64,000 nt of DNA from positions 62,001-126,000 of the forward strand of contig JAKQHT010000011.1 in NCBI GenBank assembly GCA_029557895.1, written 5' to 3'. Below the pieces are notes generated by a model. It had not been told where the DNA came from. It saw only the letters and a program-made list of their open reading frames with translations, and did no database searches. The DNA comes from Bacteroidota bacterium. GTDB taxonomy: Bacteria > Bacteroidota > Bacteroidia > Flavobacteriales > Flavobacteriaceae. The translations under genes and the position numbers were made by a program. Below, piece after piece: positions 3,792-55,560 of this stretch (position 1 is the stretch's first letter; each line of letters starts with the position of its first letter).

Positions 3792-3930
3792 CGTTTGGGC
3801 GTTCCCCTTTGTTGCAAAAAAAGCAACAAAAGGTCGCGCTATTCGTTCCAATCTTTTTGCTCGTACCTCACAAAAAGGATTTTCACTGCTATCGCTAACG
3901 CAATCCTCCTTTTTTGTGGGCAACAAACTG
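3792..3930. repeat. Intergenic structured repeat-like element with several overlapping inverted repeats
   Basis: TTTGTTGC(3808-3815)/GCAACAAA(3823-3830 and again 3920-3927); AATCTTTTTG(3850-3859)/CAAAAAGGATT(3871-3881); CACAAAAAGGATT(3869-3881)/AATCCTCCTTTTTTGTG(3902-3918). Confidence 0.55.
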
Positions 3931-6421: not shown

Positions 6422-6457
6422 AAAAAAGCAGTGCTGAAGAAGCACTGCTTTTTTTTT
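6422..6457 (+). terminator. Rho-independent terminator downstream of M1 peptidase
   Basis: AAAAAAGCAGTGC-TGAAGAA-GCACTGCTTTTTTTTT perfect hairpin with T tract. Confidence 0.9.
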
Positions 6458-49974: not shown

Positions 49975-50002
49975 AAAAAAAGCCCTGAAACAAATTCAGG
50001 GC
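49975..50002 (-). terminator. Terminator of rimP-nusA-infB operon
   Basis: Minus strand GCCCTGAA-tttgt-TTCAGGGC followed by T7. Confidence 0.82.
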
Positions 50003-50007
50003 CTTGG

Positions 50008-52713
50008 TTATTTCAATTTTTTCTTCACTTCTACCTCATGGTAAGCTTCGATGACGTCATTAATCTCTACGTCATTATAGTTTTTGATTTGCATACCGCA
50101 ATCAAACCCTTTAGAAACTTCCTTGACATCGTCCTTGAAACGTTTCAGTGAGGCAAGCTCACCTGTGTAAACCACTACCCCATCGCGTATCAAGCGAACC
50201 ATCGAAGTTCTGAATACTTTTCCGTTGGTAATCATGCAGCCCGCAATGGTTCCCACTTTAGAGACCTTGAAAATTTCACGCACTTCGGCTGTTCCTGTAA
50301 CTTCTTCTTTAACTTCTGGCGACAACATGCCTTCCATCGCATCTTTAAGGTCGTTGATAGCATCATATATTATGGAGTAAATCCTGATATCAATTTCTTC
50401 TTTATCTGCCGTTGCACGTGCATTGCCCATTGGGCGCACGTTAAAACCAATGATGATGGCATCGGAGGCCGAAGCCAACAAGACGTCACTTTCGGTAATG
50501 GCTCCTACACCTTTGTGTATGATGTTTACTTGTATTTCTTCTGTTGAAAGTTTCTGGAACGAATCTGTCAAGGCTTCTACTGAACCGTCCACGTCTCCCT
50601 TAAGGATGATGTTGAGCTCTTGGAAATCGCCAAGGGCAATACGCCTTCCTATCTCGTCCAGTGTGATGTGGCGTTGTGTCCTGACCGATTGTTCACGTTG
50701 CAATTGGGTTCTCTTGGCTGCAATCTGTTTGGCCTCGCGTTCGTCCTCAAAAACGTTGAACTTATCACCGGCTTGAGGTGCACCGTCAAGTCCCAAAATT
50801 GAAACTGGCGTCGATGGTCCAGCTTCTTTAACACTGTTACCGCGTTCGTCGTGCATGGCACGTACCTTGCCGCTGTGTTTTCCGGCCAGTACATAATCGC
50901 CTGGGCGAAGTGTTCCGCTCTGGACCAAAATGGTGGAAACATACCCGCGTCCTTTGTCAAGAAATGCTTCAACAACGGTACCGCTTGCTTGCTTATCGGG
51001 ATTGGCCTTTAGTTCCAAAATTTCTGCTTCGAGCAATACTTTCTCGAGCAGTTCTTTTACGCCTTGTCCTGTTTTGGCAGAAATATCATGCGATTGTATT
51101 TTGCCGCCCCAGTCTTCAACCAATAGGTTCATGCCTGCCAAACCTTCTTTTACTTTTTCGGGATTGGCACCTGGTTTATCTATTTTATTGATAGCAAAAA
51201 CTATGGGCACATTTGCAGCTTGAGCGTGGGCTATGGCTTCTTTTGTTTGTGGCATGATTGCATCATCGGCTGCGATAACAATGATAGCCAAGTCGGTCAC
51301 TTGTGCACCCCTGGCGCGCATAGCGGTAAACGCTTCGTGACCCGGAGTGTCTAAGAACGTGATTCTCTGGCCATCTTCGAGTTGCACACCATAAGCTCCG
51401 ATGTGCTGGGTTATGCCCCCTGACTCACCTGCGATGACATTTTCTTTCCTTATATAATCGAGCAATGATGTTTTACCGTGATCTACGTGTCCCATAACGG
51501 TCACGATTGGAGCCCTTGGTTTCAAATCTTCAGGCCTGTCTTCGGTTTCTTCAATGGCTTCTTCAATATCAGTAGTGACAAATTGCACTTCAAAACCGAA
51601 TTCGTCTGCAACTACAGAAAGCGTTTCTGCATCAAGACGTTGGTTCATGGTAACCATCATGCCGAGTGACATACATGCCGAGATGACTTGTGTGACAGGT
51701 ACGCCCATCATGGTAGCCACCTCGCTTGCGGTCACAAATTCGGTGACTTTGAGCACTTTGCTTTCAGCTTCAATTTGTTCAAGGTCTTTTTCGGTCTGTT
51801 GGCGATGTAATTCTCTTTTGTCCCTGCGGTATTTGGAACCTTTACTCTTGGCGCCTTTGCCTTGAAGTTTTTCGAGAGTTTCCCTTATTTGTTTTTGCAC
51901 ATCGGCTTCACTGGGCTCTTCTTTAAAGGTACTTGTACGGCCGGCCTTACCTTTTGCGCCTCCTTTTTGATTACCGTTCTTGGAATTGCCAGAGGCTTCG
52001 TCAGAAATGCCGCCTTTGCTTATGCGTCTTCTTTTTTTCTTGTTTGCCTTATCTTCATCTCCGCCATTTTTATCTTCTTTTTTCTTTTTGGGCTTATTGA
52101 ATTGGGTAAGGTCGATTTTTTCGCCGGCAATCTTTGGCCCGGTAAGTTTTTGGTACTGGGTCACAAAAGTAGTGTCTGTTGTGTCTTCAGTATCTTTGTC
52201 GGTTTCTGGCTGTTCCTGTTGTGTTACCTTGGGTTCTTCTTTAACTTCTGGCTTTTGTTCTTTTTCTACCTTTGGCTCAACGGGTTCTTCTTTTGGCTTT
52301 TCGGGCTCAACCTGTTTTTCGGGCTCTGGTATTTCAGCTTCTTTTTTGGGCGTTTTCTTTTTGGGCTCCAAATCGATTTTGCCGACCTGCTTTGGTCCTG
52401 CAAGCTCCACTTTGGCTTTAACAACTTGCTTGGATGCCTCTTCTTTCTTCAGTTTTTCTTCAAGCTCGCGCTCACGGAGCTCACGCATTTCTTCTTTTTC
52501 TTTGTGTTTTGCTTCACTGACTTCTTGTGATTCTGCCTTTTTGTGGGCATCAGTCTGGAATTCGTTGGAAAGCAGCACATACACTTCGTCAGAAATTTTG
52601 GTGTTGGGGCTTTTCTCTATGGAAACGCCTTTTGAGTCCAAAAAATCAACCGCTCGATCTATTGAAATGTTGAGTTCCCGTAATACTTTATTTAATCTAA
52701 TTGTTTCAGCCAT
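50008..52713 (-). CDS. infB: Translation initiation factor IF-2
   Basis: 901 aa; [43 protein letters not shown]-rich N-terminal region. Confidence 0.97.
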
Positions 52714-52742: not shown

Positions 52743-53975
52743 TCATTCTTCGAACTCTTCCCTAAGAATCCTGATAACGTCAATAATGGTTTCCTCTTCG
52801 AGGTCTGTCCTTTTTACAAGATCTTCAACATCTTGCTCCAAGACACTTTTGGCGGTATCAAAACCGGCCTTGTTAAATTCTTCGATGACCCATTCTTCGA
52901 TTTCATCTGAAAATTCCGATAGTTCTACGTCTTCTTCGGCACCTTCCCTGAATACATCGATCTCGTATCCCGTAAGCTGTCCGGCAAGACGGATGTTGTT
53001 TCCGCCCCTGCCTATTGCTTTTGAAACTTCTTCGGGTTTTAACACCACTTCAGCACGTTTGGTTTCTTCATTGATCTTTACGGAGGTTACCCGTGCTGGG
53101 CTCAACGCTCTTGTGATGTACAGTTGAATGTTGTTTGTATAGTTAATCACGTCGATGTTTTCGTTGCCAAGTTCCCTGACGATACCGTGTATCCTGGAAC
53201 CTTTCATGCCCACGCACGCACCTACAGGGTCAATCCTGTCATCATAAGAATCTACGGCCACTTTGGCCTTTTCGCCTGGGATCCTGACAACATTTTTAAC
53301 GGTAATAAGACCGTCAAACACTTCGGGGATTTCCTGTTCAAAGAGTTTTTCGAGGAAAATCGGGGCAGTCCTTGACATGATGATGGTGGGTTTGTTGCCC
53401 TTAAGTTCTACGCTTTCTATGATGCCGCGAACATTTTCGCCTTTCCTGAAAAAGTCAGATGGGATCTGTTTTTCTTTTGGAAGGATGATCTCGTTGCCTT
53501 CGTCATCCAAAAGGATGATGGCCCTATGCCGGATATGGTGCACTTCTGCGGTATAGATCTCTCCTATCAGATCTTTAAACTGCTTGTATAAATTGGTGTT
53601 ATCGTGTTCATGGATTTTGGAAATGAGGTTTTGCCTCAAGGCCAAAATGGAACGCCTTCCCAAATCGATAAGTTTTACTTCTTCTGCCACATCTTCGCCT
53701 ACTTCAAAATCGGGTTCGATCCTGCGCGCTTCTGACAGAGCGATTTCTTGATTGGGCTCTTGTACCTCGCCATCGGCTACTACGACCCTGTTTCTCCAGA
53801 TTTCCAAATCACCTTTGTCGGGGTTGATGATGATATCAAAATTGTCGTCGTCGCCATATTTCTTTTTAAGGGCATTTCTCAATACATCTTCTAAGATTGC
53901 CATGAGGGTAACCCTATCTATCAGTTTTTCATCCTTAAATTCTGAAAACGAATCAATTAACGCAATGTTTTCCAT
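52743..53975 (-). CDS. nusA: Transcription termination/antitermination factor NusA
   Basis: 410 aa; CVGMKGSRIHGIVRELGNENIDVINY; KAIGRGGNNIRLAGQLTGYEIDVF. Confidence 0.96.
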   Translation of the reverse strand: MENIALIDSFSEFKDEKLIDRVTLMAILEDVLRNALKKKYGDDDNFDIIINPDKGDLEIWRNRVVVADGEVQEPNQEIALSEARRIEPDFEVGEDVAEEVKLIDLGRRSILALRQNLISKIHEHDNTNLYKQFKDLIGEIYTAEVHHIRHRAIILLDDEGNEIILPKEKQIPSDFFRKGENVRGIIESVELKGNKPTIIMSRTAPIFLEKLFEQEIPEVFDGLITVKNVVRIPGEKAKVAVDSYDDRIDPVGACVGMKGSRIHGIVRELGNENIDVINYTNNIQLYITRALSPARVTSVKINEETKRAEVVLKPEEVSKAIGRGGNNIRLAGQLTGYEIDVFREGAEEDVELSEFSDEIEEWVIEEFNKAGFDTAKSVLEQDVEDLVKRTDLEEETIIDVIRILREEFEE

Positions 53976-53987
53976 AACTGCTATGAA

Positions 53988-54455
53988 TTAAAATTTTATT
54001 GTCACTCTTGCATCCAAAATGTCATCGTAGGCTATTTTGGCCTGCTTGTTTACCGTTATCTTGCCCTTGCCTACCGGTTTGGGTTCTTTTGCCTGCCATT
54101 CCAAGGTAATGTGCTGGTCGTCGGCATCAACCAACGTTGCTTCGATCTTGGCAACTTCTTTGGTGCTCACCTTTAAGATTCGTCCCTTATGCTTCATGTA
54201 CTGGCGCTTGTCTATCAATGGTGAGGTTGCTCCTGCAGATGTTACTTCAAGCGAAAAATCTTCCTGTTCCCTGTCAAGATTGTGCTCGATGGCTCTACTG
54301 AAAAAAATGCAATCGTCTATTGAAACGCCATTATCGCCATCGATGACAACCTGTACCCTATTGTCCTGCGATATTTTCAGGTCAATCAAAAAAAGGTCGT
54401 TCCTTTCTTCCACTGCCTTGTCTATAAGCGCCCTGATCGTAGATTCTTTCAGCAT
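53988..54455 (-). CDS. rimP: Ribosome maturation factor RimP
   Basis: ORF 53988..54461 (GTG); ATG alternative at 54455; FLIDLKISQDNRVQVVIDGDNGVSIDDCIFFSRAIEHNLD. Confidence 0.92.
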   Translation of the reverse strand: MLKESTIRALIDKAVEERNDLFLIDLKISQDNRVQVVIDGDNGVSIDDCIFFSRAIEHNLDREQEDFSLEVTSAGATSPLIDKRQYMKHKGRILKVSTKEVAKIEATLVDADDQHITLEWQAKEPKPVGKGKITVNKQAKIAYDDILDARVTIKF

Positions 54456-54464
54456 TTTCACTAT

Positions 54465-54490
54465 AAAAAGAGGGGACTTTGTGTCCCCTC
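54465..54490 (-). promoter_or_regulatory. Terminator-like hairpin in the leader of rimP-nusA-infB (possible attenuator)
   Basis: Minus strand GAGGGGAC-ACAAA-GTCCCCTC-TTTTT, perfect 8-bp stem, between promoter and start codon. Confidence 0.6.
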
Positions 54491-54518
54491 AAATTGATCT
54501 TTTTTCCGTTCTGCGGTG

Positions 54519-54551
54519 CAAATATACAACTTTTAAATTGATATACACAAA
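54519..54551 (-). promoter_or_regulatory. Bacteroidota-type promoter for rimP-nusA-infB
   Basis: Minus strand TTTG (54548-54551) - 21 nt - TATATTTG (54519-54526). Confidence 0.72.
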
Positions 54552-54608: not shown

Positions 54609-55436
54609 ATGAAAAAAATTTTAGTTCCGACCGACTTTTCCAACGAAGCTGAAAATGCCCTGAAAGTTGCCGCACAATTGGCCAAAAAATACGATCTGGA
54701 AATTTACGTACTCCATTTACTGGAGATCCCATTTCAGGAAATCGATGCAATTACAGGTCACGGAGGGGCGTTGCCAGAAGCGGTGTTTTTTCTGAAACTT
54801 GCACAGCAGCGCTTTGAAGGATTGCTGTCAAAGGACTATCTCGACGGGTTAAGTGTGCACGACATTGTGAAGCACAACAACAACTTCGCAAACGTCGTGG
54901 ACATATGTCATGAACACGATGTGGATTTGATTGTGATGGGGTCGCATGGCGCCAGTGGCCTCAAGGAAATGTTTGTGGGATCCAATGCCGAAAAGGTGGT
55001 ACGCACTTCCGATATACCTGTTCTGGTCATCAAAAACGAACACAAAGATTTTAAGGTAAATGATTTTGTCTTTGCTTCAGATTTTAAAAATGACAACAAG
55101 GAAACTTACCGCCAAGCCGTGGATCTGGCAAATATGTTTCGCGCAAAGGTGCATCTGTTGATGGTGAACACACCCAACAGTTTTAGCAGTACATCAGAAG
55201 CCAAGAACAGGATCCATGAATTTATAAAAGACTATCCCTTCTCGGACTACACGGTAAACATATACAATGATGAAAGTGTGGAAAAGGGCATTTTGAACTT
55301 TTCAAAAGAAATCAATGCCGACCTGATAGGCATAAGCACCCATGGAAGGCAGGGTATCTCACACTTTTTCAATGGAAGCATCAGCGAAGATTTAGTGAAC
55401 CACTCCAATCGTCCAGTGGTAACATTCAAGATTTAG
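54609..55436 (+). CDS. Universal stress protein, tandem UspA domains
   Basis: 275 aa; MKKILVPTDFSNEAENALKVAAQLAKK; VMGSHGASGLKEMFVGSNAEKVVRTSDIPVLVIK; second GISTHGRQGISHFFNGSISEDLVNHSNRPVVTFK. Confidence 0.94.
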   Translation: MKKILVPTDFSNEAENALKVAAQLAKKYDLEIYVLHLLEIPFQEIDAITGHGGALPEAVFFLKLAQQRFEGLLSKDYLDGLSVHDIVKHNNNFANVVDICHEHDVDLIVMGSHGASGLKEMFVGSNAEKVVRTSDIPVLVIKNEHKDFKVNDFVFASDFKNDNKETYRQAVDLANMFRAKVHLLMVNTPNSFSSTSEAKNRIHEFIKDYPFSDYTVNIYNDESVEKGILNFSKEINADLIGISTHGRQGISHFFNGSISEDLVNHSNRPVVTFKI

Positions 55437-55451
55437 CTCTTTGGGCACAAC

Positions 55452-55486
55452 AAAAAAAGCCTCCCTTTTTCGGGAGGCTTTTTTTT
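55452..55486. terminator. Bidirectional terminator between USP gene (+) and tRNA-Gln (-)
   Basis: AAAAAAAGCCTCCC-tttttc-GGGAGGCTTTTTTTT; T tract on both strands. Confidence 0.88.
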
Positions 55487-55487
55487 G

Positions 55488-55560
55488 TTGGCCTACTAGG
55501 GCTCGAACCTAGACTCTTCTGAACCAAAATCAGACGTGTTGCCAGTTACACCATAGGCCA
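55488..55560 (-). tRNA. tRNA-Gln (anticodon TTG)
   Basis: Minus strand TGGCCTATGGTGTAACTGGCAACACGTCTGATTTTGGTTCAGAAGAGTCTAGGTTCGAGCCCTAGTAGGCCAA folds as a cloverleaf; anticodon stem TCTGA/TCAGA, loop TTTTGGT; CCA not encoded. Confidence 0.95.

Follow-up and report, generated by a model that had tools for sequence, protein, structure and literature searches.

A candidate transcription attenuator in the rimP-nusA-infB leader of Bacteroidota, probably acting through NusA

In the 64-kb stretch of flavobacterial DNA analyzed here (the window), a hairpin followed by a U tract lies between the promoter of the rimP-nusA-infB operon and its first start codon, raising the question of what an intrinsic terminator does ahead of these genes and which signal, if any, it senses. 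The initial annotation had described, on the minus strand, a promoter, then GAGGGGAC-ACAAA-GTCCCCTC-TTTTT, and then the rimP ATG at 54455; re-reading the sequence confirms this, with the hairpin and U tract at 54490-54465 (Table 1). The promoter, in which TTTG and TATATTTG are separated by a spacer of 21 nt read directly from the window sequence (TTTG-N21-TATATTTG), is of the Bacteroidota type. Provided that the placement of the -7 box in Flavobacterium psychrophilum applies, where TAnnTTTG is positioned at -12 to -5 (PMC9723704), transcription is predicted to start at G54514, about 22 to 24 nt before the stem, which would make the whole leader very short (about 59 nt). By direct reading, the stem consists of a 5' arm (54490-54483) and a 3' arm (54477-54470) around the loop ACAAA (54482-54478). 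It ends 14 nt before the rimP ATG, and the U tract, which is interrupted in the window (TTTTTATA), ends 9 nt before it; no further TAnnTTTG was seen between the hairpin and the rimP ATG in the window sequence. The leader in the window folds with a z score of -3.4, and the hairpin has a free energy of -14.8 kcal/mol, compared with -15.3 kcal/mol for the terminator at the end of the operon.

Table 1. Features of the rimP-nusA-infB operon and its leader, in window coordinates.
Feature	Position	Strand	Basis
-33 promoter element TTTG	54548..54551	-	Direct reading of sequence
-7 promoter element TATATTTG (TAnnTTTG)	54519..54526	-	Direct reading
Putative leader RNA freed by termination, about 50 nt	54465..54514	-	-7 box placement and U-tract end
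Terminator stem-loop GAGGGGAC-ACAAA-GTCCCCTC	54470..54490	-	Sequence, terminator scan, folding, conservation, covariation
U tract TTTTT of terminator	54465..54469	-	Direct reading
rimP, first gene of operon, ATG start	53988..54455	-	Pfam RimP_N and RimP C-terminal domain
nusA, proposed sensor and target	52743..53975	-	Pfam NusA_N, KH_5, KH_2
infB (IF-2), last gene of operon	50008..52713	-	Pfam
Terminator at operon 3' end, 10 bp and TTTTT, just past infB stop	49980..50004	-	Strict scan

The NusA encoded in the window contains the RNA polymerase-binding (NusA_N) and RNA-binding (KH) domains, with no separate S1 match in Pfam at an E value of 0.001. The divergent plus-strand gene at 54609 encodes a universal stress protein, and the closest upstream gene on the minus strand is a tRNA-Gln gene (55487-55560) that has its own bidirectional terminator at 55456-55481. 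A terminator census of the 64-kb window with the default scan returned 13 sites, compared with 13.3 in shuffles, and does not separate signal from noise. With a stricter score (at least 14), four places were left in the window, whereas of 20 dinucleotide shuffles of the full 64 kb only one contained any. Among the four places in the window, only the rimP hairpin falls within a 5' leader, and another is the operon end after infB. The strict scan of the window marked strong bidirectional intrinsic terminators at 6424-6452 and at the tRNA-Gln site.

The initial annotation had looked to conservation of the stem and U tract before rimP as a check on its proposal, and both are conserved in Flavobacteriales and beyond, with strong covariation. 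The exact stem, GAGGGGAC-(3-6 nt)-GTCCCCT followed by a U tract, is present in 62 of 73 Flavobacteriales rimP leaders, and most of the remaining loci carry stem variants; one locus with a misassigned start codon (L060) also carries the exact stem, and L004 and L033 are one and the same contig. Across the phylum, a strict terminator (at least 4 T after the stem) was found on the coding strand in 117 of 134 rimP leaders and on the reverse strand, mostly as the same palindrome, in 9 of the 134; in some of the others, a hairpin is visible but its U tract is broken. The stem sequence differs by group (GGGGAC, GGGAAC, GGGGGC, and GGGC), and the loop drifts in sequence and length while stem pairing persists. 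Many more distant families (L077-L106) have a C-rich 5' arm (TCGCCC..GGGCGA or AAAGTCCCGC..GCGGGACTTT), which inverts the arrangement seen in Bacteroidia. In family f5, GGAAGGC..GCCTTTTTT with a long loop replaces the stem at two loci (L157 and L158), and the exact flavobacterial pattern is present in none of the sampled genomes of that family. Among 198 order-level genomes, the exact pattern occurs in 61, at a single place per genome (in G283 and G383 it matches both strands at that place), compared with zero matches for the reversed control pattern, and all 30 of the 30 pattern sites that were fetched precede rimP. In Flavobacteriales, stem and ATG are about 11 to 42 nt apart. Among 63 loci having an upstream neighbor, the neighbor is divergent in 56 and codirectional in 7, and the hairpin persists even as different genes occupy the neighboring position.

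Covariation was assessed with 30 distinct hairpins whose loops were padded with N, a step used because MAFFT without loop padding misaligned the 5' arms. Such a padded alignment leans toward structure, and the slid and shuffled controls therefore matter. Seven of the eight stem pairs change on both sides in these 30 hairpins, 29 cells show changes on both sides compared with 6.4 in shuffles, and 95.8% of cells are paired compared with 47 to 75% when the partners are slid. The contrast with the controls is large despite an alignment made with structure in mind, and the pattern of substitutions indicates that base pairing is under selection and is kept by compensatory changes. The candidate attenuator that the initial annotation placed in the rimP-nusA-infB leader is supported by the conserved stem, the U tract, and this covariation.

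The promoter accompanies the hairpin. Of 91 related leaders, 88 have a TAnnTTTG element no more than 75 nt ahead of the stem, compared with 8% for shuffled sequence, and +1 and the stem are separated by a median of 22 nt in related leaders. No antiterminator was found: the best pairing between leader and stem arm in the window reaches -3.0 kcal/mol compared with -14.8 for the hairpin, and in relatives the median pairing is -2.45 kcal/mol compared with -15.6 for the hairpin. Upstream segments compete well with the stem only in L036 and in four leaders of one small clade (L021, L023, L027, and L029), whose stem is weaker. The stem of that clade is GAGGGGAC..GTCCTCTT, and its leader carries a conserved CTGAAAGGATAT..AGTATTCAT, which might fold into a small hairpin of its own ahead of the stem or base-pair weakly with the 3' arm. 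No leader peptide is conserved, an ATG preceding the stem in just 36 of 88 leaders, and Rfam identified no riboswitch in the window; together with the +1-to-stem distance of about 22 nt, these results led to the rejection of an attenuator based on a leader peptide or a riboswitch. The GAGG of the 5' arm was likewise rejected as a Shine-Dalgarno mimic, since over 25 nt separate it from the ATG and AAGGGGC and other variants lack it. Comparative sequence thus establishes a conserved order of predicted promoter, hairpin, and U tract, without an antiterminator or leader peptide. Elsewhere in the window, at 3828-3904 on the minus strand, a Flavo-1 RNA (RF01705) exceeds its gathering score.

RimP is usually regarded as a general 30S maturation factor. 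About 40 genomes from roughly ten families (L173-L181 and L198-L216), several of them nearly complete, have no RimP_N match. A search for NusA in genomes of this kind gave 24 rimP-less genomes, all negative for rimP by PF02576, with sequence upstream of nusA. A strict terminator lies directly before nusA in 18 of these 24 genomes, representing eight families, whereas rimP-bearing controls have a terminator within 200 nt before nusA in 1 of 73 loci; the Fisher P value of 1e-13 for this comparison overstates the case, as the genomes are related and not independent, and it is the spread over eight families that supports it. Examples of these terminators are AAGGGGACATTGTCCCCTT-TTTTT, GAGGGGAACAACTCCCCTC-TTTTTT, and AAAGGGCTTATGCCCTTT-ATTTTTT. 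A promoter of the TAnnTTTG type lies upstream of the terminator in 17 of the 18 genomes by script and in G507 by eye. Inspection by eye also identified a weaker hairpin before nusA in four genomes (G007, G166, G450, and G482), and no hairpin was found before nusA in G051 and G433, which are strongly reduced (0.3 and 0.5 Mb). In some rimP-less genomes, the stem is more than 100 nt from the ATG (more than 140 nt in G045 and G491 and 246 nt in G507). Four genomes that lack rimP by Pfam and yet have a RimP-like open reading frame before nusA were excluded (G487, G546, G556, and G585), and they have no terminator before nusA; in G220, rimP and nusA sit on separate contigs.

Read plainly, these genomes suggest that rimP was deleted between the leader and nusA and that the attenuator was then retained. 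A terminator kept before nusA without rimP implies that the element belongs to nusA(-infB), and this genomic association indicates that nusA(-infB) is what the element acts on. The linkage of nusA and infB is kept in nearly all genomes, so that infB cannot be separated as a target. The lineages that lost rimP thus represent a natural deletion experiment pointing to nusA(-infB) and away from RimP, and an element that belongs to nusA(-infB) disfavors feedback by RimP and fits termination stimulated by NusA. No earlier report of this result was found in the literature searched.

The arrangement has counterparts in other bacteria. The rimP-leader, described by Naville and Gautheret in 2010 as the most ubiquitous transcription attenuator, with RimP or NusA as the candidate sensor (PMC2965389), shares an intrinsic terminator in the 5' untranslated region of rimP-nusA-infB, a G-rich 5' arm, a C-rich 3' arm, and the lack of a visible antiterminator, and NusA was proposed as the sensor there too. 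Its terminator lies 4 to 130 nt from the start codon, compared with a spacing of 9 nt between U tract and ATG in the window. The stem of the rimP-leader (GGGc..gCCC) differs from the flavobacterial GAGGGGAC..GTCCCCTC, the motif being interrupted in the window (GGGGAC..GTCCCC); a literal GGGC..GCCC stem is found in relatives (for example, L161, L164-L166, L174, L178, and L180). In its available text, that paper names Firmicutes and Gammaproteobacteria and not Bacteroidetes, and the same text yielded nothing on persistence before nusA without rimP (PMC2965389). The gammaproteobacterial rimP family in Rfam (RF01770) has the same operon and position as the window element, and the E. coli rimP leader contains two terminators, the second being GGGCTTTAGGCCC-TTTTTTT. 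This family gave no match in the window even at an E value of 10, with the E. coli positive control scoring 102 bits; other weak Rfam hits in the window at E values up to 10 look like chance and were discarded.

Within the Bacteroidota, a structured 5' element upstream of rimP was listed in F. psychrophilum by Guerin et al. in 2021 as transcribed, conserved in other Flavobacteriaceae, and without an Rfam hit (PMC9723704), and it is very probably the same element. It was given one sentence, and neither a terminator nor a mechanism, a motif, or a connection with nusA is described for it in the main text of that paper. The main text of a transcriptome paper on Bacteroides thetaiotaomicron is silent on both rimP and nusA. 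The present results extend a known type of regulator, the rimP-leader, to this phylum, and the element itself is real and well supported. In Bacillus subtilis, NusA-stimulated termination in the leader sets transcription into nusA, as established experimentally (PMC12288461). That system shares an intrinsic leader terminator attenuating nusA; the dependence on NusA is experimental there, whereas in Bacteroidota it is proposed from sequence alone and the hairpin is strong.

The leader terminator is probably an attenuator through which NusA limits the transcription of its own operon. Placed about 22 to 24 nt after the start site of the operon itself, an intrinsic terminator would act as a transcription attenuator, part of the polymerases stopping after about 50 nt and the rest reading through into rimP-nusA-infB. 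NusA stabilizes hairpins in the RNA exit channel and would most likely raise termination at the leader hairpin, so that a surplus of NusA would lower the transcription of its own operon. We infer termination at the candidate attenuator in this organism, its partial nature, and NusA as the factor sensed, the last by analogy with B. subtilis (PMC12288461). The feedback step, in which more NusA would give more termination, is favored by B. subtilis nusA and by the hairpin before nusA in genomes without rimP. Because the hairpin matches the terminator at the operon end in stability, polymerase would reach the essential genes beyond it only with the help of a strong promoter or an additional factor, and partial read-through has to be attributed to promoter strength, to the interruption in the U tract, or to another factor. 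Counting against this explanation are a hairpin strength unlike that of the weak NusA-dependent terminators of B. subtilis, the linkage of infB with nusA, and the two reduced genomes without a hairpin. A 2016 study reportedly found weak terminators to be the main sites of NusA action in B. subtilis. It is possible, though tentative, that in Flavobacteriales the almost invariant GAGGGGAC/GTCCCCTC stem is, beyond being a terminator, a recognition element whose sequence is read specifically by NusA or another protein, forming a nusA sensor that would have outlived rimP loss across the phylum. With a leader of about 59 nt, the whole mechanism is amenable to in vitro work.

A real nusA-infB attenuator might be tuned by a signal other than NusA, such as NusG, IF-2, a ribosomal protein, or nucleotide levels, and this is unlikely. 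In Flavobacteriales, the stem sequence varies far less than a plain terminator would permit, suggesting a specific reader, and an IF-2 signal is conceivable given that nusA and infB travel together; however, the distance between +1 and the stem leaves no space for an aptamer, the stem differs across the phylum (GGGGAC, GGGAAC, GGGC, and inverted C-rich forms), and NusA is the factor known for such control in B. subtilis. It is distinctly improbable that the terminator is a constitutive throttle, insensitive to any signal and stopping a constant fraction of transcripts: the strength of the hairpin and the failure to find an antiterminator, an aptamer, or a leader peptide agree with a throttle, but conservation before only this operon throughout the phylum exceeds what a mere throttle needs, and the operon encodes a general termination factor. 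A hairpin acting after transcription, in protection of the mRNA 5' end or control of translation, is very improbable; the stem in the window is near enough to the ATG to be reached by an initiating ribosome, but the U tract is conserved together with the stem, and the distance from stem to ATG varies from about 11 nt to beyond 100 nt between Flavobacteriales and some rimP-less genomes. Feedback by RimP or by the state of 30S maturation, for which the original authors allowed (PMC2965389) and with which the position before rimP in most genomes would agree, can scarcely be credited when the element is kept before nusA without a detected rimP (PF02576 negative) in at least eight families. An ordinary 3' terminator of the upstream gene and a DNA operator palindrome were both dropped as identities of the rimP hairpin and are extremely unlikely, for the perfect inverted repeat and the few codirectional upstream genes (7 of 63 loci) are outweighed by a divergent neighbor in most loci, a promoter between neighbor and hairpin, and, unlike a dimer operator, a spacer varying from 3 to 6 nt and compensatory stem changes.

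Two side observations concern the promoter-hairpin-nusA unit and the rimP promoter. In G007, G041, and G054 (L173, L174, and L178), a tRNA-like sequence lies directly upstream of the promoter-hairpin-nusA unit; the tRNA-Gln gene in the window lies past the stress-protein gene. In L002 (1501-1525), 25 nt of the rimP promoter stretch (TTTAAAAGTTGTAnATTTGCACC) recur almost unchanged at another place in the same genome.
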